Assembly: GCA_029561505.1 (NCBI GenBank)
Contig: JAKQXK010000329.1
Span: 1 to 21,494, forward strand
Length of the DNA: 21,494 bases
Origin: Spirochaetota bacterium
Lineage (GTDB): Bacteria > Spirochaetota > Leptospiria > Turneriellales > Turneriellaceae
Direction: 5' to 3'
The notes beneath the pieces were generated by a model, which was not told the origin of the DNA, ran no database searches, and saw only the letters and a program-made list of their open reading frames with translations. Shown here piece by piece: positions 2,829-19,891 of the stretch (position 1 is its first letter; each line of letters begins with the position of its first letter). A program made the position numbers and the translations under genes.

Positions 2829-2849
2829 TTCTGAGCACACAACTCAGAA
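2829..2849. repeat. perfect 7-bp inverted repeat overlapping the hppA-like stop
   Basis: TTCTGAG (2829-2835), a 7-base loop, then CTCAGAA (2843-2849). The right arm covers the stop codon of the minus-strand gene (2844-2846). It sits between convergent genes and may help end minus-strand transcription, though no T-run follows on that strand. Confidence 0.45.
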
Positions 2850-4919
2850 AAGTGTTTTCACCAGCTCACGCAGCCGTGCGTGCAGCTCGAGCGTTGCGGG
2901 CGTGAATATCAGCGATGCTATGATTGTCACATGCACAGCAGCGGCCAGCGTCGGTGCCGCAGCTTCGTGCATTGAATCTCCCACGATGTCTGCCTGTATG
3001 AGCGCTTCGAGTTGAGCGGTGTGGCGTGAAACCTGCACGTCTGCTTCAGCTGCATGGCGGGCACTTGACCAGGCGGCTCCTGTTGTGAGCCAGCTATTGG
3101 CTCCGAGAAATGTAAAGAAGCCAAACCCGATCAGATAGCCTGTGAGGCCATACGTGCCGCCGAACAGGCAGGCAATCGCGGGCAAAAGCATCGTGAGCAA
3201 GAACAGCGGCATTATCTTGCGGGTAAGGTAGGCGCGCGAAATCGTGAGTAACGCCGCGGTGTCTGGTTCAACCTCTCCCGACGTAAGGCCGGGTATTTCG
3301 CGAAATTGGCGGCTCGTCTCGCGCACCATCAGCGGACCAAGATTCAGCACCAGTTCGTTGACGCGTGCCGCCAGATAATAAGATGAAATGCCGCCAATCA
3401 ATAAGGTCGCTGTTTCAGTTAAATGCTTGAAGAGCGACGCCGCGCCGGCTTCGCTTAAAATCTGCGTATAAACGAGAAAAATCAGCATCACCAGTGCCGA
3501 TAGCATGATCTTGGCGTGCAGAACGTACGAGGGCAGCGAGACGCTGCGCAGAATTCTGAACTTATCTAGCACTGAATTCAAGTCGCCTTTGCGCTGATTG
3601 AGCCTAGCCTCACCGATAAACTGAGAAGCGATCGGGGTAATTACCGCCGTTGCCTGAGCGACGGTAAATAACGACACCATTGAAGTTAATGCCAGCGCCA
3701 GCGCGAAAAGACCGTAGGTAAACCGGTCTTCTCCCTTTTCGTCGACTACGCCCATGAGGTAGACAAGGCCCATCATCATTGCAACTATCAGCGCAGGTAT
3801 TGCCGCACCCCGCATGCCAGCTGCAATGCCGCGATGGATTACTGTCGATACCGAACTGGCTGCCGCTGCGATCAGGCCACGGGCTGTCTTATGATTTTCT
3901 GCCACATATGCGGCCGAATAAACGTTCAGCAACAGCGCCGTCAGCGAGCCAACGAAAGTGATCCAGAAATATTTGATGTGCATTTCAGCAAGCACAACAA
4001 GCACGACATAGGTAATTACAGCCTGAATGCCGAGCGATGCCACGTAACCGATGCGAATGTTCCACAAGAATGTTTCAGGCGATGTCTTTTCCCTTACGCG
4101 CATAATGAACAATGCGGGTATCGTTGCGATCACGCCAATAGCGAAAACGGTCAGGGAAACTGTCGCGCCCAGCGTCGCCGGCAACTTCGTTTGCGTCTCA
4201 ATCTGGTGTGATACGGTCAGCACAACGACTGCCAATAACATATATTCCAGGTGTGAAAACAGAAAGCGGTTGATCGCTGCGAATGTCTGCCTCAAACGCC
4301 ACAGCGGGTTCGATGCACCCGCAAGTGGTAAGAGCGCTTCTTGCCGTGCCATCAGCTCGAACGCGTAGTCTGCCGACCGCGCGGTTAATGCGACCTGAAA
4401 GCGCTGATAAAACATGAGCAGCGCCCCCGCATATGCCGGTATCAGGTAGAGTTGCGTCATCAGGTTTTTTTGTTTTTGCGTGAGCCAGGCATAAGTCATA
4501 GCCAGCAGAACAGCCCCGAGCCCCATGAGGGCCCCAGCGTAGAGTATCTGTCTGAAGATGCGGCTGATGGTCTCTTTTTGTAACTGCATGACGCGCCGCC
4601 GCATGTACCGCAACAAAGCTTCGCTTGCGAGCGCCGCAATCAGAAAAATCAGAAATCCGCATGAGCTGAGAAGAAGAACAGACCAGTCTGAAATTTTGTT
4701 TCTCGCGAAATCAAAATAGTAGACCAGCGCGAGCATGAGCGCGAACAGCAAAGTTGAGGCAGCCGCCGAACGGTAAAGAGGCTTGCGGTATATCAACGCG
4801 CTTTGACCCGAAGCCGCAATGGCGGCAGCATTCTCAGGTTTACGCGCGAGCTGGGCAATACATAAGACTGAAATTGCGAGCGCAAACGCGATAGAAATAT
4901 AAACGATAAGGGCGAACAT
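2844..4919 (-). CDS. divergent membrane pyrophosphatase (HppA) homologue lacking catalytic residues
   Basis: The protein has 691 residues and about 16 hydrophobic segments, matching the HppA fold and length. HppA couples PPi hydrolysis to H+ or Na+ pumping. Landmarks are collinear: 'RQFREIPG' (residues 537-544, nearly identical to HppA), then 'PD...L..I', 'GAAWSSARH' (614-622; HppA GGAWDNAKK), 'IVGDSMHEAAAPTL' (645-658; HppA VGDTVGDPxKDTxGPxxN) and a closing 'IFTP'. The catalytic sites are gone. HppA ADVGADLVGKVE is ADYAFELMARQE (183-194). DDPRNPAxIADNVGDNVGD is replaced by 'ASNPLWRLRQTFAAINRF'. DNAGGIAEM is SQFIGEARL (432-440). DALDAVGNTT is about VLDKFRILRS (450-459). Pyrophosphatase activity is therefore unlikely. 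The reading frame is intact. It is the last gene of the minus-strand run, 13 bases after the secreted-protein gene. Confidence 0.85.
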   Translation of the reverse strand: MFALIVYISIAFALAISVLCIAQLARKPENAAAIAASGQSALIYRKPLYRSAAASTLLFALMLALVYYFDFARNKISDWSVLLLSSCGFLIFLIAALASEALLRYMRRRVMQLQKETISRIFRQILYAGALMGLGAVLLAMTYAWLTQKQKNLMTQLYLIPAYAGALLMFYQRFQVALTARSADYAFELMARQEALLPLAGASNPLWRLRQTFAAINRFLFSHLEYMLLAVVVLTVSHQIETQTKLPATLGATVSLTVFAIGVIATIPALFIMRVREKTSPETFLWNIRIGYVASLGIQAVITYVVLVVLAEMHIKYFWITFVGSLTALLLNVYSAAYVAENHKTARGLIAAAASSVSTVIHRGIAAGMRGAAIPALIVAMMMGLVYLMGVVDEKGEDRFTYGLFALALALTSMVSLFTVAQATAVITPIASQFIGEARLNQRKGDLNSVLDKFRILRSVSLPSYVLHAKIMLSALVMLIFLVYTQILSEAGAASLFKHLTETATLLIGGISSYYLAARVNELVLNLGPLMVRETSRQFREIPGLTSGEVEPDTAALLTISRAYLTRKIMPLFLLTMLLPAIACLFGGTYGLTGYLIGFGFFTFLGANSWLTTGAAWSSARHAAEADVQVSRHTAQLEALIQADIVGDSMHEAAAPTLAAAVHVTIIASLIFTPATLELHARLRELVKTLF

Positions 4920-4932
4920 TCAGTGAGTACGC

Positions 4933-5712
4933 TTATTTCATTTGGCCTTTGCGTAAAGTTTTATTGCCTTTTGCGTCTAAATTGCCTTCACCGGGCGATT
5001 CGAGTAGACTCTGAATGCCCTCGGGAAACAGGGCTTCAAGGGTCTCGAGGCCTGTATCATCGGCTGTGACGGGTTCTATGAGTTTTTCGAGAAACCCTTC
5101 AAGCTGTTGTCGCTCGGCGAGCAGAATCGCCAACCTGCGCAAAGTTGCCCGCTCGGTTCTGCCCGGCCAATGGTTTGAGAGCAAAACAGCAAGTAGTTTT
5201 GCCCGTTTATCTTTTTCGGCGTCGGCGAAAGCCGCGAAAACTCTATTCTGCGATACCAGCGGCAGCAACTCTGCGATGAACACGCGCTGCCATTTACGCA
5301 GAGGTTTCGCCGCAAGCGCGTGCAGGTTTAGTTGTTCGGCAAGCATAATCGCTGAAACGTCACAGTAAGAAACAATCAGGTTCAGGCGTTTGTTAAAATG
5401 CCCGTCTCGGTATTTTGAGAACTTCAGGTTGCGCCGGTAATCGGCCGCAGAAGCATATAGCCTCACCTGAAGAAGTGGCTCGATTTCGGGATCTGATTCT
5501 CTTGAGGGTGCCCCGAGGTAATTTTCGATGCGCCGCGCGTGCAGGCGCATTTGCGCGTCGTTGCAGCGGTGTTGCGCATAAAAATGAGCGCCGGTGTAAT
5601 AGCGCCATTTGCCGGGCAAATCGAGAGGTTTATCGAGATCATATTCGACTGCTATCGCCGCCAACGTTGAAGCGCAGCAAAGTAAACAAATAAAAGGGAT
5701 CAGCCTTGCCAT
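4933..5712 (-). CDS. secreted/periplasmic protein of unknown function, possible degenerate gluzincin
   Basis: The protein has 259 residues and an N-terminal signal peptide: basic MAR, then a hydrophobic core with LLCCA. Cleavage is likely near residue 19-21, though CC at 12-13 leaves a loose lipobox conceivable. After a 'GKWRYYTGAHFYAQ' opening, residues 83-150 resemble the layout of peptidase-MA-like gluzincins: 'VRLYASAADYRR', a 'HFNKRLNLIV' strand, a helix, and 'W....IAELLP'. No HExxH is present, however (the helix reads AEQLNLHAL), so metalloprotease activity is not supported. The C-terminal third is Leu/Glu-rich and helical, ending in a basic tail. The start overlaps the ubiX end by 13 bases and the hppA-like gene follows after 13 bases, so the three are probably co-expressed. 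Confidence 0.8.
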   Translation of the reverse strand: MARLIPFICLLCCASTLAAIAVEYDLDKPLDLPGKWRYYTGAHFYAQHRCNDAQMRLHARRIENYLGAPSRESDPEIEPLLQVRLYASAADYRRNLKFSKYRDGHFNKRLNLIVSYCDVSAIMLAEQLNLHALAAKPLRKWQRVFIAELLPLVSQNRVFAAFADAEKDKRAKLLAVLLSNHWPGRTERATLRRLAILLAERQQLEGFLEKLIEPVTADDTGLETLEALFPEGIQSLLESPGEGNLDAKGNKTLRKGQMK

Positions 5713-6332
5713 GGATGAATAACACGCTTGTCAATTTCCATGTGCTGCATGATACGATCTACCATGAAGTCATAAAGATCAGTGATGGTCGTGGGTTTGT
5801 GGTAATAACCCGGCATCAGGGGCATAACCACGGCGCCGGCCTCACTCAGCGCGAGCATATTGCGCAGATGAATAATACCCAAGGGTGATTCGCGGGGGCA
5901 AACGATAAGTGTTCGACGCTCTTTGAGTGAGACATCTGCCGCACGTTCAATCAGATTTTGGCTGAGACCGGTGGCAACTGCCGCTAAGGTTTTCATGCTA
6001 CAGGGCACTATGACCATTGCCTTATACCACTGCGAGCCGCTGGCGGCGCGAGCTCCGATATCCCGGTAGTCGCAATAGTTGAATTTATGTACGGTCTCTC
6101 TGTCGCCAAAACGCTGCTTCGAAAGTTCGACCAGATTCTCTGCGCGGCTATCGGTTACACCCGCCTCGCTCGCAAGAACTTTGAAAAAATTCGGTGAAAC
6201 AATAAGTTCGCTTTCACCTTCAATTTTGCACAGTTGCCAGATCAGCCGCAGCGCAAAGTCTGCGCCCGAAGCCCCTGTGACGCCAACAATGAAACGATTC
6301 GGTGATTGCTGCCTCTGCGGTTGCATGCTCAT
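5700..6332 (-). CDS. ubiX: UbiX/Pad1-family flavin prenyltransferase
   Basis: UbiX makes prenylated FMN, the cofactor of UbiD-type reversible decarboxylases. The FMN-binding opening is GVTGASG, followed by 'VSPNFFKVL'. The conserved block 'VPCSMKTLAAVATGLSQNLI' carries the PCSM motif. 'CPRESPLGIIHLRNM' and 'VMPLMPGYYHKP' complete the family set, so the enzyme looks functional. The chosen ATG overlaps the stop of the SPL-like gene (ATGA). ATG 6326 and TTG 6341 are alternatives, and ATG 6326 has a GGA about six bases upstream. No ubiD or quinone gene lies nearby, so the decarboxylase partner must be elsewhere, or the cofactor may serve another enzyme. It is the fourth gene of the minus-strand operon. 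Confidence 0.93.
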   Translation of the reverse strand: MSMQPQRQQSPNRFIVGVTGASGADFALRLIWQLCKIEGESELIVSPNFFKVLASEAGVTDSRAENLVELSKQRFGDRETVHKFNYCDYRDIGARAASGSQWYKAMVIVPCSMKTLAAVATGLSQNLIERAADVSLKERRTLIVCPRESPLGIIHLRNMLALSEAGAVVMPLMPGYYHKPTTITDLYDFMVDRIMQHMEIDKRVIHPWQG

Positions 6333-7333
6333 TCCATGCAAAAATAAATCTTATCTTCAGGGCAACCATGCTTTTTCAGAAGTTCCCTTCCCGTTTCCAG
6401 CATCTGCATGCGCAAAGGGCGAATATAGCGCATTTTCTGGTCAGTGCCCTGAATGAAGTTTCTGGCGAAAATTTCCGAATCGGCGTAATTTTGCTTTGCT
6501 TCGCGATAAACATCTTTCGCAAAGCGCACAACGCCAAGCGACAGGTAATCAATCGCGCCGAAGCCGATTATGTTGGCGAGCTCTGCCACGAGAGTCTCGA
6601 AATGCTGCGCAAAGTCTGTAGCGTAAATTAGCGGGTCAAAATGAACACCTAGCCTGAACCCGCGCTCTTTGAGGCGCAGCATCGCGGCCATGCGTTGACT
6701 GACCGGCGGAGCTTCGCGGTCGTACTTTTCGGCCTGAGCAGGTGTTGAAAGTGAAAAGCTCACCACTGCATTTGGCAATGGGTTAAGTTTGCGCATCACG
6801 TGCAAGTTAATCGATTTTGTGCGCAGCTCGAGCCAGGCATTAGGGGTTTCAGCAAAAAAATCCCAGTATTCGCTGAGCTCGTCGGTGATATGCGATAGCG
6901 CCAGCGAGTCGCTGAATTCGCCCGCATGAAACCAAACCCGCTTCGACGCGTGTTTTGCCACCAGTTGCCGCATTTCGCCTATAATTTCTGCATGGTTAAC
7001 GAAAAGAACCAGATCGGGTGAACTGAAGTATCCCTGCAAATAGCAGTATTCGCATTCATAAATGCAATTGTACGCGTGAATATAATAGTAGTGCAGATCA
7101 TCGCTGCCGTAACCATATGCGACAGGTGCTTCTTTAACGAGTGCCCCGCGCTTGACCGCGATGAACAGATTGCGCGTTGTCCGTTTGGTTAGGTAGTTGG
7201 TGCCGCGCCGGGAAAAGACGCTCTGGTGGTCTTCAATTTCTTCGACCCGCTGCGCACTCAGCTTGCTGACTATTTTCGCCGATGCCGGGTATGCCAGAGC
7301 TGCTCTCTCTATATACAGAGTGTCAATCTGCAT
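6329..7333 (-). CDS. radical SAM protein of the spore photoproduct lyase (SPL) family
   Basis: The protein has 334 residues. The radical SAM cluster motif CxxxCxxC is in 'NCIYECEYCYLQGY', with cysteines at 90, 94 and 97. That is the position and local context seen in SplB, which repairs the spore photoproduct in DNA. The TIM-barrel regions 'VVSFSLSTP' and 'LGVHFDPLIY' (which matches SplB) are also present. The SplB H-atom-donor cysteine, in a CTSD-like context, is replaced by GEFSDSLAL (about residues 138-146), with no cysteine there. It therefore probably belongs to a non-lyase SPL-like subgroup. I start at ATG 7333 rather than TTG 7378 because it overlaps the upstream stop by 11 bases and the domain begins soon after. 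DNA repair or small-molecule chemistry are both open. Confidence 0.88.
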   Translation of the reverse strand: MQIDTLYIERAALAYPASAKIVSKLSAQRVEEIEDHQSVFSRRGTNYLTKRTTRNLFIAVKRGALVKEAPVAYGYGSDDLHYYYIHAYNCIYECEYCYLQGYFSSPDLVLFVNHAEIIGEMRQLVAKHASKRVWFHAGEFSDSLALSHITDELSEYWDFFAETPNAWLELRTKSINLHVMRKLNPLPNAVVSFSLSTPAQAEKYDREAPPVSQRMAAMLRLKERGFRLGVHFDPLIYATDFAQHFETLVAELANIIGFGAIDYLSLGVVRFAKDVYREAKQNYADSEIFARNFIQGTDQKMRYIRPLRMQMLETGRELLKKHGCPEDKIYFCME

Positions 7334-7754
7334 TGATACGCTCGCTTTCGCAGGCTTCGCGCCACCTGTCAAAATCAAATGCCTGTAGCCGCTTGAGCAG
7401 AAGGTCGAAATCCGTTTTGTTGTGTATTGTCGCGTGTATCGTCAACGCGCTGGTTTCAAGAGATTGATCAAAATGCGTGCGTACCGGCCCTCCGTTCAGC
7501 GGGCGCAATGCTTCTGCCCGTTGGCGGCGCAGCTGGGTTTCTTGCGGAAATAACTCCGCTCTAAGGGCGTCGATGCAGTCAGCAGCAGTGGTGATGGCGC
7601 GTGAGTTTAAAAAATCCGCATTTTTCCATATCGAAATATCGGCACCCCGCAGAGCCGCAACCGATAACAATTCTTTTATGATTCGCTGTTCAGACTGCGT
7701 GGCGCGAAACGGAAGTTCATTTTCGTGGGCGCCGCGCGGCGGCAACGTCTCCAT
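7323..7754 (-). CDS. hypothetical 143-aa soluble protein
   Basis: No family is recognised. The protein is soluble and mixed alpha/beta in character, with no membrane segment or signal peptide. The middle is Arg/Leu-rich ('QLRRQRAEALRPL'). The C-terminal 45 residues look like a small alpha/beta unit: 'SALTIHATIHN' as a strand, then two charged helices ending in 'RWREACESE'. Its ATG begins one base after the stop of the MBL/cNMP gene, and its 3' end overlaps the SPL-like gene. Translation of all three is therefore coupled, and an accessory role to the radical SAM protein is a reasonable guess. Confidence 0.75.
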   Translation of the reverse strand: METLPPRGAHENELPFRATQSEQRIIKELLSVAALRGADISIWKNADFLNSRAITTAADCIDALRAELFPQETQLRRQRAEALRPLNGGPVRTHFDQSLETSALTIHATIHNKTDFDLLLKRLQAFDFDRWREACESERINAD

Positions 7755-7755
7755 A

Positions 7756-9900
7756 TCAGAACTCGTATTGCAGTTTCATTTTGACGCCCGGGTTGCGGTC
7801 AAAAAATTTCAGCGCGTCTTCGCGTGAGACTGCATAGAGCGATGCTTCACCTTTGTTTATAAATCCGTAAGCAAAGTTTTCACGGCCTGTTTTTAATAGC
7901 TGGCTATGGACGATGACGTCGCCTCTCGTGAGCAAACCTTCTTCAATGCCGTTATTCGTGAGTGTCACTTCACCCGAACGGATAATGTAGAAATATTGCG
8001 GCACGACACCTTCGGGGTAAATCGGGCCTTTTTCGGTGAATTCAACCGGAATCAGCATCGATTCGAGCCAGGTTTTCTGCGTCGATGTGAGAAAGTTCAG
8101 CTGGCGGCTCTGTGAGATGACGTTCCACGTTTCGGCGTCACGCACCTTGGCGAGTTTCAGCAGAATCTTCTCGAATTCTGAACCCGATATGAAATTCAGA
8201 AACTTATCTTTCTCGACGGTGAAGAGAGTCACTTCGGTTTCTGCGACCACGTCGGCTGTGCGTAGCTGGTTCGTCACCAGAGCCACCTCGCCGAAATAAT
8301 CGTAGGCGCCATAAATCTTTCGCGATTGCAGATCTTGCGTGCGCACCGATACAGAACCGAAATAGATTATGTAGAAGCGATCGCCGCTCGTACCCTGCTG
8401 AATGATCAGGTCACCCTTTTTATACCGTTCAATCTGAACAATGTCAATAAACTCTTGTGCGCGTGAGATCGGCATATCTTCGAAGAAGTCAAGTTGTTTC
8501 AGCGTGCTTAGAATTTGCGAAGCCTTTACATTTTCAGGTGCTGCAGCGTTAAAATAAAGTGTATTCTCAATACCAAACTTTGCAAGCGTCAGGTGCGTTT
8601 GCTTCGGAAAATCTTTTTCACTGATGTGATAAACAACGATACGTTTTTTCACGTCATCGGGTAAAGAGTCGAGATGCGCGATCGGCGTATGCAGCGGGGC
8701 TATACCCGATTCGTGGTATATGACATTGCTGTGCCAAGGAAAGTTGCGCAGCGCCTTGTAACGCGATTCGCTGATGATCTGCTTTTCTCGCAGCTGTTCA
8801 TGAATTACAGGGTCATTATTATGGTCTGATGAATAAACGAACGATTGATCTTGAAATTTTAAGGTAAAGCCAATCGCGGGAATCGAATGCAGTGTGTAGA
8901 AAATGTCGAACCTGCCACCGTGAATAAAGAAAGGCTGACCGACTTTCACAGCTTTAAAGTCAAAGAGACGGCGCATGTAACTTTCGTCGATGTCGGCGAG
9001 TGCTGCATACTTCTTCAAAAAGCTACCCATCACCGTTTCAGTGGTATAGATCGTAATCTTACCTTCTTCAAGAATCTTCTGAAATGTGCCGGCGTCGTGG
9101 TCTGCGTGACAGTGCGTCAGAATAATACTGTCGATGAACTTTGGGTTAACATTCGAATCTTCGAGCCATTCGGTTGTGTTCACCGGCGGGTCGATCATGA
9201 TGCCGCTGTGGTTTAGCCAGATGATAAAGCCCGAGGTGTTCTCGCTGGGGTCGAACCCATGGCTTGGGCCTAAGCAAGTGACGCCGAAGAGCGGCGGCAC
9301 AAACGGTTCGTGCAGACGCTCGCCGATGCGATACACTGTCTTGAATTCTATTTTACCAGGAATATCGGCGATATGTTTGTTTGCGCTTGTAACAGCAAAG
9401 TTATCATCGGCATCTTGACTGACAGTGACACCGCGGTAAGTGAAGCGGCGCTTTTCGTTGAAAATACCGAAGCCCACCATATCGGCGAACTTAAAAGTGC
9501 TGCTGAAGAATTTCATTTCGCGCTTTAGCGCAGGTACTTCGAGCCCTTCCATATAGTCGCCCGAAACATCGAGGTTCTTTGGGCCGAAGACGGCTTCGTT
9601 AAACACGGTCTTGAAGCGCAGAAACTGCTCTTCATTGCAGATAAGAATGGTCTTGCGCTTCTTTAGAAAGAAGTTGTAATAGATCGGAAACTCAAGTTCG
9701 GCGACGCTGATGCCCTTGCGCCAGTTGAAGAAGTGCTTGGGCAAAACAAAAACCGTCGGTACACCCTCGGGCAGAAACATCGTGTCTTTAATCGTTTCGG
9801 GCGGCGCTCCGAATTGAAAGTAGCCACCGGGCGTTTGCACCAAATAACCGCCTCGCGGCAATTCTGTAACAACATGCGAAAGCTCTTTAAGCGGTTCCAT
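7756..9900 (-). CDS. MBL-fold metallohydrolase fused to two cyclic-nucleotide-binding domains
   Basis: The protein has 714 residues. An N-terminal region (1-200) without a recognised motif is followed by a metallo-beta-lactamase fold (about 200-450). It has the metal motif THCHADHD (His263, His265, Asp267, His268), then His338, Asp359 in 'SSDHNND' and His425. These suffice for a dinuclear centre. Residues 470-590 form a cNMP-binding domain with a good phosphate-binding cassette, 'FGEVALVTNQLRTADVV' (Glu538, Arg547). Residues 595-705 form a second, degenerate cNMP-like domain without the FGE..R signature. This suggests a hydrolase or phosphodiesterase controlled by cAMP or cGMP. It heads the minus-strand operon. 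No clear Shine-Dalgarno precedes the ATG. Confidence 0.92.
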   Translation of the reverse strand: MEPLKELSHVVTELPRGGYLVQTPGGYFQFGAPPETIKDTMFLPEGVPTVFVLPKHFFNWRKGISVAELEFPIYYNFFLKKRKTILICNEEQFLRFKTVFNEAVFGPKNLDVSGDYMEGLEVPALKREMKFFSSTFKFADMVGFGIFNEKRRFTYRGVTVSQDADDNFAVTSANKHIADIPGKIEFKTVYRIGERLHEPFVPPLFGVTCLGPSHGFDPSENTSGFIIWLNHSGIMIDPPVNTTEWLEDSNVNPKFIDSIILTHCHADHDAGTFQKILEEGKITIYTTETVMGSFLKKYAALADIDESYMRRLFDFKAVKVGQPFFIHGGRFDIFYTLHSIPAIGFTLKFQDQSFVYSSDHNNDPVIHEQLREKQIISESRYKALRNFPWHSNVIYHESGIAPLHTPIAHLDSLPDDVKKRIVVYHISEKDFPKQTHLTLAKFGIENTLYFNAAAPENVKASQILSTLKQLDFFEDMPISRAQEFIDIVQIERYKKGDLIIQQGTSGDRFYIIYFGSVSVRTQDLQSRKIYGAYDYFGEVALVTNQLRTADVVAETEVTLFTVEKDKFLNFISGSEFEKILLKLAKVRDAETWNVISQSRQLNFLTSTQKTWLESMLIPVEFTEKGPIYPEGVVPQYFYIIRSGEVTLTNNGIEEGLLTRGDVIVHSQLLKTGRENFAYGFINKGEASLYAVSREDALKFFDRNPGVKMKLQYEF

Positions 9901-10625: not shown

Positions 10626-11573
10626 TTAGGGGTTTACCGTGACAACCGCTGAGCATTGGTCGCTCACGCCTGCTGCCTGTGCACGAATGCGTATCGATTC
10701 CGCAACCAAGGGGTTGGTGAGGGTGTACGTCAGCGTCGCCCAACTTGCGACACCTGCGACAGCACTTTTGGCGAGAACGTCACCGCCGAGCGAGCCCGGG
10801 GCCGCATTAGGGCATACTGTTACATGTGCCGAGATCGTAATTGAGGCGGTGAAATCAGTATCGACCCGCCCGTTCACATCTGTGGCGTAAATGGATTGCG
10901 TACCGGGAAAGTCATTCGTGTGCGTGGCGATCAGACCAGTAAACGAACTCTTTCCCTGCAGCTCGCTCGCGACAATCGTGATCGCTGCCGAGCCGCTCGC
11001 AAAGGCAGCCACCGAAGGCAGCATATTCGACGAAGCTTCGATTACTTCAGCATCGATCGAAGGCGATATATTTACCGCAATCGTCTGGTTGTCGGTGGTT
11101 GCACCGTTGACGCTACTGCGTATCTGCGCTTTTAGCTGGTAGGTTTTTCCGGTTTGGTCACCATCGGTGATGATGATGTCGCCAAAATCTTTGAAGATGA
11201 TCGAATTACCGCTGGTTGTTGCAACGGTATTGTTGCTGCCAGGCCCTTCGAGTACAAAGCGCAGTTCGGCTATATCGGCTGTGCCAGTGTGCGTGAATTT
11301 TAGCGTGCGAATCTGCAGCGGATAGCCGTCACGCGAGCCATTCTCTTTCACTGTGAATTCAAGAATCGTGACTGCCTGATTGACGTTATTCAAAATTGAA
11401 CTAATGGTCGGGGGTGTTGCAAGCGCCGTTTTAACGATGTCACCCGATTCAACACCCGCGCCTTTGCCTGATTCTGTGAAGATGAGGTCGATGGGTTTCT
11501 GCGCAATGCACGCAACCAGTAAGAATGGTATCCATAGAAATATAGATCCACGTATTTTCTCAAACCCTCGCAT
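10626..11573 (-). CDS. lipoprotein with Ig-like/beta-rich repeats
   Basis: The protein has 315 residues. The N-terminus has a basic start (MRGFEKIR), a hydrophobic stretch and a spirochaete-like lipobox LLVAC, so it is probably a lipoprotein with the mature Cys near residue 22. The rest is Ser/Thr/Ala-rich, beta-strand-prone and low in charge. Two or more Ig-like/invasin-type modules are suggested by 'GKTYQLKAQIRSSVNGATTDNQT', 'TNDFPGTQSIYATDVNGRV' and 'ASWATLTYTLTNP'. I start at ATG 11573 rather than further upstream because it gives the signal peptide and forms a TGATG junction with the preceding barrel gene. It is probably exposed at the outer membrane. The ligand or partner is unknown, but the coupling suggests it works with the barrel protein. 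Confidence 0.8.
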   Translation of the reverse strand: MRGFEKIRGSIFLWIPFLLVACIAQKPIDLIFTESGKGAGVESGDIVKTALATPPTISSILNNVNQAVTILEFTVKENGSRDGYPLQIRTLKFTHTGTADIAELRFVLEGPGSNNTVATTSGNSIIFKDFGDIIITDGDQTGKTYQLKAQIRSSVNGATTDNQTIAVNISPSIDAEVIEASSNMLPSVAAFASGSAAITIVASELQGKSSFTGLIATHTNDFPGTQSIYATDVNGRVDTDFTASITISAHVTVCPNAAPGSLGGDVLAKSAVAGVASWATLTYTLTNPLVAESIRIRAQAAGVSDQCSAVVTVNP

Positions 11574-12703
11574 CAGAAATAAAACCCCGCGCCCAATCGG
11601 GCATTCACTTCTGCCTGCGCACCACCCGCGAAATGGAATACTGTAGCCGAAGGTATAAACACCACAGCCCAGCGGGGGTGCAGCATCCATTTGATGTTCG
11701 CGCCGGCCTGCGAGAGAAAATAAAACTGGTCAAGCGTCTGCTCGGGCACGCTCTGCGCAACCGCAGTGTCGACAGGCTTTCGCGCGAGACCAGAATAATC
11801 AAACAAAAAGTTTGAATAGCCAAAGCCGAAACCGGCGAAAGGTTCAAGCCGCAGCGAACCCAGATTGAAAGCATAGCCGAGCGAGGGTATGGCCTCGCCG
11901 GTAATGAGTCGTGTCGGCACCTCGCTGCCGCTGCGCGTGTAGATGCGCCGTGCAAAACCCGCGTTCAGCCCAAACTGAGCAAAAACAGGCAGTTTGCTGC
12001 GCCGAACAAAAAGTTCTGCGACCTGATGGCGTTGGTAAGTTAACTCGGCATTGAAGTGCGCGAATTCTGCGCCCGATACGGTCGTCGAGCCAGTGAGGTT
12101 GCCCGTCTCGGGCGCAAAACCCGCGGCGCGCATGCCGGCCGAAAGCAACAGCGTGCGCTTGCCTTTTTCAGGGTCATAATACGACCCGCCGCTGGCGGCG
12201 AGCGCCTGCTGCGACGGCAGCGCTTCAGACATCTTTGTGCCAAGCTCTGCTGCGATTTTGTTAAACGTGTCGAACATTTTTGCCGACAGCGGTGCCTCGG
12301 TTTTAAAATTCACCAGCATGCGGCCCGTTTCGATTTCGTACAGGCTGAGGTTCAGGCGCAGCCTGTTATTCGCGACCGCATAACGCCCGTTCAGCACAAG
12401 ATCTTGCCGCAGCCATTCACCCATTTGCAGCGCGGCTGATTTTGTGTGCATGTCTTCGTCTTGAATGAGGTTGCCCGACTGCGTTTCACCAATCGCCTCT
12501 TCAGGCGGATGTAAAAAGAAATAACTTTCGGCGAGCGTGTTGCGTATGGCTTCGGCAAGTGAAGGGCCAATGTAAGCAAAGTCTGCCTGTGCGCCTTCGT
12601 TCACAGGGTTCAGCACCAGAAGGCGCTTAACCGTCGGGGCTGCACTGAGACTACCTGCCAATAGGCAGAAAACTGCGGCGGCATTAAGTCGCATTGCGGG
12701 CAT
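11573..12703 (-). CDS. outer-membrane beta-barrel protein with FlgO/TolB-N-like periplasmic domain
   Basis: The protein has 376 residues. A signal peptide (to about residue 22, 'GSLSAAP') is followed by an alpha/beta domain (about 24-150). This resembles the FlgO/CsgG/TolB-N fold: 'KRLLVLNPVN', 'IGPSLAEAIRNTL', 'LRQDLVLNGRY', 'LRLNLSLYEIETGRML'. From about residue 180 there are alternating aromatic/polar strands ('LLLSAGMRAAGF', 'LRLEPFAGFGFGYSNF'). It ends in 'LGAGFYF', a terminal Phe typical of BamA-assembled barrels. ATG 12694 is an alternative start. It is coupled to the lipoprotein gene by a one-base stop/start overlap. No specific transport function can be named. Confidence 0.75.
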   Translation of the reverse strand: MPAMRLNAAAVFCLLAGSLSAAPTVKRLLVLNPVNEGAQADFAYIGPSLAEAIRNTLAESYFFLHPPEEAIGETQSGNLIQDEDMHTKSAALQMGEWLRQDLVLNGRYAVANNRLRLNLSLYEIETGRMLVNFKTEAPLSAKMFDTFNKIAAELGTKMSEALPSQQALAASGGSYYDPEKGKRTLLLSAGMRAAGFAPETGNLTGSTTVSGAEFAHFNAELTYQRHQVAELFVRRSKLPVFAQFGLNAGFARRIYTRSGSEVPTRLITGEAIPSLGYAFNLGSLRLEPFAGFGFGYSNFLFDYSGLARKPVDTAVAQSVPEQTLDQFYFLSQAGANIKWMLHPRWAVVFIPSATVFHFAGGAQAEVNARLGAGFYF

Positions 12704-13633: not shown

Positions 13634-14533
13634 TTACGTGCCGATCGGGTGCCAGATAGTTTTGTATTCTTGAAAATCAGTGATGTAGTCGAGTTTTTGC
13701 CCGGCATCGCCATAAAGATCTTCTGCCGATTTCCATGCTTTGGTGCGTATACGCTTCAGGTTTTCGGTCGCGGCTTTTTCTGCTTCGACGCGCAATTCTG
13801 TTGAAATGCCTGCGAGGTCGAGAGCGTTGACATCCATGTGCTGCGCGAGCCCTGGCAAAAGTTCTTTTGCATAGCCGGTGAGCACGTTGACGACGCCGTG
13901 TGTCAGGTCAGATGTTGCGAGCACTTCTGTCATGCTCACGACCACCGCCGGGTTTTCTTCAGAGCAAATCGCGATGACGCTGTTGCCACCAGCAATAATC
14001 GGCGCTACCTGCGAAATGAACCCTAATACCGGTGCAAATGCCGGTGCCACAGACACGACTACACCCGTAGGCTCGGGAATCGTAAAGTCAAAATATGAAC
14101 CCGCTACAGGGTTGTGGTTACCGACGAGCTGCTGAAATTTATCGCACCAGCCTGAATACCAGACCAGACGATCAATGGCGGCATCAACTTCTTTCGACGC
14201 TGCTGCCGCTGTGATGCCAGAGACGAGTTTCAACTCGGCGCTAATCTCGTTGGCCCGAGCTTCGAGCATTTCAGCCATGCGGTAAAGAATCTGCCCGCGG
14301 TTGAATGCGGTTTTTTTCGACCAGCTGCCAAAGGCCTTGCGCGCCACTTCGACAGCATTGCGTGCGTCTTTGCGGCTTGCCTGAGCGATGTTGGCATAAA
14401 ACTTACCTGTTTCGCGCGCGTTCAGCGGAAATGACCGGCCAGATTCAGAACGGGGAAACTCCCCCCCTATAAACAGCTTCTTGGTCTTTGCGACCGCGAG
14501 GCGCATGTGGGTTTCTTCAGCAACTTCAGGCAT
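13634..14533 (-). CDS. truncated aldehyde-dehydrogenase-like protein lacking the catalytic domain
   Basis: The protein has 299 residues against about 480 for the family. The N-terminal NAD-binding half is clear: 'KLFIGGEFPRSESGRSF', 'AFGSWSKKTAFNRGQILYRM', 'EPTGVVVSVAPAFAP', 'PIIAGGNSVIAICSEENP', 'GVVNVLTG', 'DLAGIS'. The last 20 residues, 'LDYITDFQEYKTIWHPIG', match the extreme C-terminus of ALDHs. The middle catalytic segment with the nucleophilic Cys and the general-base Glu is absent. The NAD-binding Lys of VKPSE is also changed (AICSE), as is the Asn of PWN. It is in frame with no internal stop, so it is either a stable pseudoenzyme or a partner subunit of another ALDH. ATG 14506 has a GAAG-like site and is an alternative start. 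Confidence 0.85.
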   Translation of the reverse strand: MPEVAEETHMRLAVAKTKKLFIGGEFPRSESGRSFPLNARETGKFYANIAQASRKDARNAVEVARKAFGSWSKKTAFNRGQILYRMAEMLEARANEISAELKLVSGITAAAASKEVDAAIDRLVWYSGWCDKFQQLVGNHNPVAGSYFDFTIPEPTGVVVSVAPAFAPVLGFISQVAPIIAGGNSVIAICSEENPAVVVSMTEVLATSDLTHGVVNVLTGYAKELLPGLAQHMDVNALDLAGISTELRVEAEKAATENLKRIRTKAWKSAEDLYGDAGQKLDYITDFQEYKTIWHPIGT

Positions 14534-18446: not shown

Positions 18447-18908
18447 TTATGTTAGGCCAATTATTAAATTCGCCGCATGACCCTTCCAGGTCATGGGTAT
18501 TACGAGCGTCGGCTCGGCTAAAACAAACTTAAACTCTTCGGGTTCGCCCACAACTACGCTCGGCACTGATATGTCAAAGCCGCTGCCAAAATGCGTACGC
18601 GCGTTACCAGAAATGGTATTTGCCATTTCGGCGATCATCGGTATCAGATCTTCGTCGCTTTCAGCTGCGCTTCCCAAAACAACCTGAACCAGATCTTCAA
18701 TCACCGGCTTTTCACAGGTTATCACAAGCCCGCCGCGGTGGCTGCCCGAAATGCCGATGTGGCCTGAGTACGCGAGCAACGGGTGCTTCTGTGATTTGTT
18801 GTCGAGGTTATACGGTACGCCGAACTCGGGTTTGGGTGCGCCGAGTGCGGTAAAATATTGTGTCGTTGAATTCAAGAGCGCCGTGATGTCGCTGTCGCTC
18901 AGCCGCAT
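18447..18908 (-). CDS. cheX: CheX-like chemotaxis phosphatase (second copy)
   Basis: The protein has 153 residues, the usual size for CheX, which dephosphorylates CheY-P. The catalytic ExxN pair sits in 'EMANTISGNA' (Glu94, Asn97), the CheX signature. It is flanked by 'YSGHIGISGSHRGGLVITC' and 'FDISVPSVVVGEP'. It is clearly paralogous to the gene just upstream, sharing 'YSGHIGISG', 'ANTI.GNAR' and 'TWKG/NWKG'. Only five bases separate the two, so they are one transcript with cheY. Confidence 0.87.
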   Translation of the reverse strand: MRLSDSDITALLNSTTQYFTALGAPKPEFGVPYNLDNKSQKHPLLAYSGHIGISGSHRGGLVITCEKPVIEDLVQVVLGSAAESDEDLIPMIAEMANTISGNARTHFGSGFDISVPSVVVGEPEEFKFVLAEPTLVIPMTWKGHAANLIIGLT

Positions 18909-18913
18909 TGTGG

Positions 18914-19360
18914 TTAATCTATCCCCACTACCAAATAAGCCTGATAGCCTTTCCAGTTAATAGGCAGCACCACAACCGGCGTGCGCAACACGATGCGAAA
19001 ATTCGCAGGCTTGCCCTTGAAAATTGTCGGTACAGAAATGTTAAAGTCAGAACCAAATGACGTGCGCGCATTACCTGCGATAGTGTTCGCGATTTCGCCG
19101 ATCATGTCGAAAATCGACTGGTCGTCGACTTCATCGGTCAGCAGAATCTTGCGTGTGACATCGGCGAGCATTTCGCGCGGGCAGGTAATGTAGAGACCGC
19201 CACGGCGGTTACCAGAAATGCCGATGTGGCCCGAATAGTCGAGCAGCAACTGTTCAGGGCCTTTAGTATAAGGGATACCGAGCTCGGCCTTCTCGCCGGT
19301 GACCTCTGCGAAATACGAGATCGTGCCGTTAATGAAGACCTGTATTTCTTCTTGCTTCAT
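18914..19360 (-). CDS. cheX: CheX-like chemotaxis phosphatase (first copy)
   Basis: The protein has 148 residues. ExxN is in 'EIANTIAGNA' (Glu89, Asn92), matching the CheY-P phosphatase site, with 'DYSGHIGISGNRRGGLYITC' before it and 'FNISVPTIFKGKP' after. The ATG lies three bases after the cheY stop, so translation is coupled. Both copies keep the catalytic residues, which points to a retained tandem duplication rather than decay. CheX proteins act as dimers, so the pair may form heterodimers; this is inference. Confidence 0.88.
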   Translation of the reverse strand: MKQEEIQVFINGTISYFAEVTGEKAELGIPYTKGPEQLLLDYSGHIGISGNRRGGLYITCPREMLADVTRKILLTDEVDDQSIFDMIGEIANTIAGNARTSFGSDFNISVPTIFKGKPANFRIVLRTPVVVLPINWKGYQAYLVVGID

Positions 19361-19363
19361 GTA

Positions 19364-19723
19364 TCAGTCAGCAACAACCTGATCGAAAGCTTCTTTGATG
19401 CTCTCTGGGGTAAAAGGTTTGCCAAGAAAGCTGCGCGCACCTTTCTTGAGTGCTTCGAGTGCAGTCGCTTCGTCTTTGAGAGCAGAAACGACCATGACCT
19501 TGACGTCAGGCTTGATCTTGAGAAGTTCTTCGAGGCACTGCAGGCCATCCATCTCAGGCATCGTGATATCGAGCGTCACAACGTCGGGCAGCGTGGTTTT
19601 AAATAGTTCAACAGCCTGTTTACCGTCGGCGGCCGTACCAACGATTTCAATACCTGCAACGGTCAGATATTTTTCAATCGCCTTGCGCATAATACTCGAA
19701 TCGTCGACAATCATCAGCTTCAT
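19364..19723 (-). CDS. cheY: CheY-like single-domain response regulator
   Basis: The protein has 119 residues and a receiver domain only. The acidic pocket Asp7-Asp8 (VDDSS), phospho-acceptor Asp52 (LDITMPEMDG), Ser80 in 'VVSALKD' and Lys102 (GKPF) are all present. I start at ATG 19723, with AAGGTGAG just upstream, rather than the longer frame. It is the first gene of cheY-cheX-cheX. The next genes encode its likely phosphatases. No kinase or flagellar gene is nearby. Confidence 0.93.
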   Translation of the reverse strand: MKLMIVDDSSIMRKAIEKYLTVAGIEIVGTAADGKQAVELFKTTLPDVVTLDITMPEMDGLQCLEELLKIKPDVKVMVVSALKDEATALEALKKGARSFLGKPFTPESIKEAFDQVVAD

Positions 19724-19795
19724 AGGCTCACCTTGAGGCTTTGCCAGTGCCGTCACGTGTTTTTCGCTGATCATGATGCCCGCCGAAAAAAGCAG

Positions 19796-19824
19796 GATAT
19801 ACCACCCTGAACAAGCATTCGCAA
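19796..19824 (-). promoter_or_regulatory. candidate sigma-70 promoter for the cheY-cheX operon
   Basis: On the minus strand, TTGCGA (19824-19819), a 17-base spacer, and TATATC (19801-19796). Each box matches four of six consensus bases. It would give a leader of about 65 bases before the cheY ATG at 19723. Confidence 0.35.
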
Positions 19825-19891
19825 CTGCGCGCGACATAATCCCTCGCGTAACAGATTCTTGTCACTGCACCCGGCTCTGGCAAATTGCCGC

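Follow-up and report, generated by a model that had tools for sequence, protein, structure and literature searches.

Membrane pyrophosphatases (mPPases), a small class of primary ion pumps, are well known structurally. Pseudoenzymes in general are catalytically dead relatives of enzymes, kept within enzyme families for regulation or binding. In PMC6882861, the hydrolytic centre of mPPases is given as 16 residues (12 acids, three Lys, and one Asn), water activation is assigned to the Asp pair 6.43/16.39 (D287/D731 in the Vigna radiata [Vr] numbering used here for catalytic-site positions), and TM10, TM13, and TM15 form the dimer interface. Working mPPase dimers are functionally asymmetric, according to PMC8469034 and PMC6882861. 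Among the matches listed by a search of open-access full text, a scope outside which most subscription papers and bioRxiv preprints lie, there was no description of a dead or pseudoenzyme mPPase paralogue.

Here we analysed a 21,494-nt stretch of spirochaete DNA (the window) encoding psHppA, a catalytically degenerate mPPase paralogue of 691 aa (positions 2844..4919, minus strand, stop codon included). It has in common with pseudoenzymes in general the apparent loss of catalysis, a retained fold, purifying selection, and an active-type paralogue alongside. The fold and ancestry of psHppA are already known; what appears to be new is its conserved, probably non-catalytic state with inverted constraint.

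Homology, fold, and distribution of psHppA

The homology of psHppA to mPPases is far beyond chance. The protein matched PF03030 with 140.6 bits, against a curated cut-off of 29.7, and the Pyrobaculum aerophilum enzyme PaPPase (8b37) at E=4.8e-15. Twelve NCBIfam mPPase equivalogs were also matched, the best of which, at 126.6 bits, missed its cut-off of 546. The predicted structure is the full-length 16-helix mPPase fold; the model aligned over 632-666 residues with 8b37, Thermotoga maritima 4av3, and V. radiata 4a01, at an identity of just 16-18%. Collinear landmarks, R5.50, and some of the polar site in TM5 and TM16 are shared with these enzymes; psHppA differs in having lost eight of the 16 hydrolytic-centre residues and in that constraint now weighs on the dimer interface instead of the active-site helices. 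A preceding sequence-only reading of the window had described an intact open frame for a full-length HppA homologue with its fold kept and with RQFREIPG, GAAWSSARH, and IVGDSMHEAAAPTL in collinear positions, and all of this was borne out. An assembly or sequencing artefact was rejected, since the frames are free of inner stops in all eight carrier genomes, including a genome of only two contigs (G004); it is further ruled out by the 35 family clusters, including two fragments, that came from searching proteins.

Of the genomes searched, all seven from the window's genus contain full-length psHppA, as does one from a second genus. Carriers thus make up 8 of 13 genomes of the family and eight of the 392 searched in the phylum, which were drawn from a larger group. 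Across these 392 genomes the eight members scored 986.8-1218.6 bits, and the other listed matches scored at most 73.5 bits. Two protein searches, in which the 8000 candidates sharing most words were scored, agreed on 35 members plus P0036, which was dropped as an ordinary HppA. The 35 members gave 33 rows, with P0001 replaced by the window's own translation and with P0012 and P0013, near copies of P0011, left unaligned; the site alignment and the conservation and entropy comparisons used 31 rows, that is, without the fragments P0034 and P0035. Source names of the members point to Turneriella and Leptospiraceae MAGs, and a scan of genome contigs gave six named loci, all in MAGs titled Leptospiraceae, Turneriella, Spirochaetes, or Spirochaetota. 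Turneriella parva is described as a free-living aerobe in PMC3746428.

In a tree of 51 rows, the psHppA family formed one clade with 100/100 support and a very long stem. Descent from long-type HppA is undecided from the sequences, as similarity by helix is mixed and the clade is attached by this very long branch. A weak PF03030 match in the carrier G007 (17.4 bits) was set aside; it lies in a frame for an MMPL-type transporter. One genome of another spirochaete family has a diverged mPPase-like frame of 727 aa (L074:7517-9697, minus strand, equal to G180:C55:35516-37696; PF03030, 71.9 bits) beside an intact-looking HppA. Its acids in TM5-6 and TM11-12 look mostly lost in an alignment that reaches up to before TM15-16, and dead paralogues of mPPases may have had more than one origin. 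The phylum-wide PF03030 survey listed matches of at least 833 bits, and 29 of its genomes were rescanned individually; further dead mPPases may have been overlooked in the remaining surveyed genomes.

Remodelling of the catalytic site under purifying selection

We aligned the 31 psHppA-family members with 33 working mPPase rows of spirochaetes (including two partial and two identical rows) and V. radiata, using MAFFT. In the hydrolytic centre, the family has three identical residues (D253 in 30/31, D723, and D727), five charge-conservative replacements (K250R, D257E in 30/31, K694R, K730H, and D731E), and eight losses (E268, D269, D279, D283, D287, D507, N534, and D691). Here the Asn given as 12.53 is taken by us to be Vr N534. 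The E268 column holds Leu in 30 members and Val in one, the D269 column is variable without any acid, and the D279 column is Arg in 31/31. The D507 column holds Ser in 29 and Ala in two, the N534 column is hydrophobic throughout, and the D691 column is Ser in all 31. R242 (R5.50) is retained in every member. The water-activating Asp pair is broken, with D287 lost and D731 changed to Glu.

Alignment and conservation delimit two half-sites. In the TM5 half-site (residues 173-194; 4338..4403, minus strand), R173, R181, D184, E188, R192, and E194 stand in place of Vr R242, K250, D253, D257, K261, and E263, and the cluster ADVGADLVGK persists in the altered form SADYAFELMAR. In the TM15-16 half-site (residues 615-652; 2964..3077, minus strand), S618, S619, R621, H622, D644, D648, H651, and E652 stand in place of Vr D691, N692, K694, K695, D723, D727, K730, and D731. 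Where mPPases have a strongly acidic Mg-PPi site, the cytosolic pocket of psHppA appears to have acquired a set of Arg, His, Asp, and Glu residues whose charges roughly balance.

The register of TM6 depended on the aligner: phmmer left it ungapped, MAFFT introduced a six-residue gap, and hhalign disagreed with both, in TM12 as well as in TM6. Single replacements in these two helices, such as D294 to E225, are therefore not firm. The window protein has no acid on 279, 283, or 287 in any register tried, and D283 falls on a gap, Ala, or Gln depending on the register. Its sole TM6 acids are E225 and E241. Between residues 204 and 237, the 31 members have acids in column 212 (5/31), which is D287 according to MAFFT, and at E225 (Glu in 31/31), which is D294 in the ungapped register.

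Six motifs of working mPPases (GDNVGD-like, DDxRNP-like, (S/T)DNA, GNT, GGAWDNA-like, and GDTxGDPxKD) were searched for, and none occurs in any of the 33 family sequences, two of which are fragments. Five of them were present in 33/33 working mPPases and the sixth in 25/33, in a control biased by the fact that 31 of the 33 had been chosen for bearing at least one such motif. The disappearance of the signature motifs, claimed by the sequence-only reading, is seen in all 33 family sequences. Its further claim that almost all catalytic and metal-binding residues had become hydrophobic or neutral holds for the loss itself (8/16) and overstates its extent, since five positions keep their charge and three are identical; alignment with mPPases brought back the TM5 cluster, in altered form, and, in the window protein, no acid at 279, 283, or 287 of TM6. 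The three identical acids, the five conserved charges, and the acid of column 212 in five members would suit a protein that still hydrolyses PPi or a related compound by altered chemistry. We regard this as highly improbable, because E268, D279, D507, D691, and N534 are replaced in all 31 members, acids are missing from the D269 column, D283 corresponds to a gap, Ala, or Gln depending on the register, and the constraint on TM5, TM11, and TM12 is gone (see below).

The gene is under purifying selection. The proteins of the window genome (G000) and G004 are 85% identical, with dN of 0.10 and dS of 1.5-2.6; dS is saturated, so omega is approximate. Codons of the two genes differ at 0.56 of third positions versus 0.06 of second positions. 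Eighteen old-site columns, kept and replaced ones together, had a mean entropy of 0.33, whereas columns drawn at random from the helices concerned had 0.91 (P=0.00035); D283, D287, and N534 were omitted from this set because their register is uncertain. The old-site columns that are not conserved are D269 and K261, and the replacements R181, R210, S618, S619, R621, H651, and E652 are invariant. Substitution rates and site conservation reject a decaying pseudogene. The idea that the protein was repurposed rather than decaying is supported by this selection, by the near-invariant remodelled site, and by an intact paralogue in the same genomes. Half of the catalytic site is lost, yet the fold and the pocket are under strong selection, which makes a different job probable.

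Inverted constraint and the intact long-type HppA

We compared entropy per helix between two sets of similar diversity. One set held the 31 family members, with a mean pair identity of 0.62 and an effective number of 16.9; the other, with 0.59 and 16.0, held 24 working mPPases of related spirochaetes, these being the 33 rows without two partial and seven long-type rows. Helix limits were taken from the AF2 model of psHppA. The tightest parts of working mPPases were loop 5-6 (0.26), TM5 (0.38), TM11 (0.55), TM12 (0.58), and TM6 (0.70), for which the psHppA family had 1.26, 1.07, 1.03, 1.08, and 1.15, respectively. The tightest parts of the psHppA family were TM15 (0.39), TM13 (0.54), TM9 (0.59), and TM10 (0.59), for which working mPPases had 0.76, 0.92, 1.38, and 1.28. 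The entropy ratio of TM10/13/15 over TM5/6/11/12 was 0.46 in the psHppA family (bootstrap 0.42-0.49, 31 sequences) and 1.83 in the 24 working mPPases (bootstrap 1.66-2.05), and both ratios were stable over clustering thresholds of 0.7-0.95. Eleven long-type HppAs, which look catalytically intact, had an intermediate ratio of 1.17 (unweighted), so the contrast is weakened and partly reflects the choice of sequences for comparison.

Two stretches stand out. TM13 (residues 496-541; 3297..3434, minus strand), an interface helix of mPPases according to PMC6882861, is highly constrained in psHppA. The TM9-TM10 junction (residues 340-375; 3795..3902, minus strand) varies among working mPPases but is under strong constraint in the psHppA family. 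Loops 7-8 (0.49 versus 1.27 in working mPPases) and 9-10 (0.41 versus 1.50) are constrained as well, and by mPPase topology both are presumably cytosolic. Loops 2-3, 4-5, and 6-7, which we expect to be periplasmic, are free, with lower conservation than any other loop measured in the psHppA family.

The relaxation of TM5, TM6, TM11, and TM12, which line the old central path, argues against a pump or channel along that route. A passive channel or carrier that uses this path for another ion or solute is unlikely, even with the pump fold kept, R5.50 present in 31/31, and the TM6 carboxylate E225, also in 31/31, at gate position 6.50 in the ungapped register; the gate residue K742 has become L, H, or T, and in the gapped register D294 becomes Phe and E301 becomes Tyr or Phe. 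Where the sequence-only reading had offered a channel, transporter, sensor, or scaffold, the readings that need the old ion path are disfavoured by the relaxed helices, and the dimer interface and the cytosolic face are favoured, with function unproven.

A paralogue of psHppA, the long-type HppA recognised by NF001950, is found in the same genomes. It was above the cut-off and whole in seven of the eight carriers (frames of 827-863 aa), and each of the seven has all seven tested catalytic motifs intact. In the window genome it is a contig-end fragment (620.9 bits, positions 9-389) with the three motifs of the N-terminal part intact. Within the family, it occurs in 8/8 psHppA carriers versus 0/5 non-carriers, and among 40 other genomes of the class in five. 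It diverges 2.5 times more slowly than psHppA (mean 0.17 versus 0.42; 15 pairs, six genomes).

Given the asymmetry of mPPase dimers, one dead subunit could be tolerated or even useful. We consider unlikely the main rival to a receptor role, namely that psHppA is a non-catalytic regulatory subunit that heterodimerises with the intact HppA of the long type in the same cell, throttling or tuning its activity. The co-occurrence in all eight carriers (seven whole, one contig-end fragment) and in none of the five non-carriers speaks for such a pair, but it covers two related genera, so plain ancestry may suffice, and five genomes have long-type HppA without psHppA. Constraint on psHppA is particularly high in the dimer-interface helices, as a heterodimer would have it, but the affinities of single helices diverge. 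TM15 and TM14 are nearer the long type than ordinary mPPases by substitution score (1.24 versus 0.92 and 0.51 versus 0.15), as are TM5 and TM9 by identity (0.21 versus 0.15 and 0.17 versus 0.12), whereas TM10 and TM13 are nearer ordinary mPPases than the long type by identity (0.29 versus 0.23 and 0.25 versus 0.17). Distances of psHppA and HppA correlate (r=0.81, seven genomes) as expected of two genes on one species tree, which is uninformative.

Gene neighbourhood and proposed function

In the window, psHppA follows three close-packed frames on the minus strand. They encode a radical-SAM protein resembling spore photoproduct lyase (SPL; 6329..7378; PF20903 and PF04055), a UbiX-family flavin prenyltransferase (5700..6341; PF02441 and NCBIfam PRK06029.1), and a protein of 259 aa (4933..5712), hereafter the partner, which has a hydrophobic N-terminus and is probably secreted. 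The first two have mechanically assigned TTG starts. With such mechanical starts, ubiX shares 13 bases with the SPL frame and another 13 with the partner frame, the partner starting inside the end of ubiX, and the partner stop lies 13 bases before psHppA. This packing suggests an operon in the window, where counts from a promoter and terminator scan were no higher than in shuffles.

The neighbourhood is not conserved across the eight carriers. By blastp of open reading frames, the partner adjoins psHppA in four (G000, G001, G002, whose contig ends there, and G004). In G005, ubiX lies directly beside psHppA, and in G003, G006, and G007 neither gene does. When whole genomes were searched, the partner was present in five of the 13 genomes of the family, in G007 on another contig, and at E<=0.001 it was not found in the carriers G003, G005, and G006 (completeness 82, 93, and 99% among these three). 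The partner is therefore not always adjacent, a point that the sequence-only reading had left to be checked.

A search for the partner gave 16 proteins, and they have two invariant cysteines. The model is modest (pLDDT 78.5), and Foldseek gave weak, consistent matches to gluzincins, the best being an M9 collagenase (7zoc, E 1.9e-3), followed by M1 aminopeptidases and M9 collagenases, with none at E<=0.001. A Pfam scan of the 16 members gave nothing below E 0.08, and the HExxH zinc motif is absent from 16/16. The partner is probably a second pseudoenzyme, possibly a dead peptidase of the gluzincin type, as far as the weakly matched predicted fold indicates. We consider it very unlikely that psHppA serves to anchor or scaffold envelope proteins of the operon, above all the partner, at the membrane. 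Close packing, adjacency in four of eight carriers, and a partner that is likewise a probable pseudoenzyme are consistent with such a role, but three carriers gave no partner at E<=0.001, and the putatively periplasmic loops 2-3, 4-5, and 6-7 are the least conserved of those measured.

Elsewhere in the window, positions 7756-9900 encode a 714-aa protein in which a metallo-beta-lactamase domain is joined to two stretches of the cyclic-nucleotide-binding type. The window and G004 versions of this protein are 97% identical; the next genes are 59 and 74% identical. Positions 10626-12703 hold two overlapping frames of 354 and 376 aa, the former without a Pfam match and the latter with a weak beta-barrel match below its cut-off. 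An aldehyde dehydrogenase frame (13634-14533) matches only the first half of its profile (5-232 of 461) and is truncated or interrupted. At 18447-19837, two tandem CheX-type phosphatase genes adjoin a receiver-domain gene.

The Arg/His/acid pocket, the constrained interface, and the constrained cytosolic loops together point to a putative dimer that would bind a cytosolic ligand and report or transmit its presence. We put it at about an even chance that psHppA is a conserved pseudoenzyme acting not as a pump but as a ligand-responsive receptor or regulatory device in the membrane. In the mechanism that we propose, psHppA would be a dimeric mPPase paralogue that has lost PPi hydrolysis and ion pumping and keeps the 16-helix fold and, most likely by analogy, the homodimer. 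Its remodelled pocket would probably bind another anionic, Mg-independent cytosolic ligand, and occupancy would be relayed via TM10, TM13, and TM15 and the conserved loops 7-8, 9-10, and 15-16. The full conversion, in which a pump turned into a non-pumping dimeric receptor, the Mg-PPi pocket into an Arg/His-rich site for an anionic metabolite, and selection moved to the interface and cytosolic loops, is put forward tentatively, at somewhat less than an even chance. A heterodimer or a scaffold would also be consistent with the pattern of constraint, and the invariant pocket charges could be an internal salt-bridge network without a ligand.

In the sources, relatives of psHppA are labelled 'sodium/proton-translocating pyrophosphatase' or 'K(+)-stimulated pyrophosphate-energized sodium pump', and psHppA is probably misnamed as a pump in databases. 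Metabolic reconstructions based on such names would count as a pump a protein that very probably is none. If true, a conserved dead paralogue would mean that the mPPase fold can serve without PPi chemistry, and psHppA would offer a natural experiment to tell which regions of the dimer are important for reasons other than catalysis.
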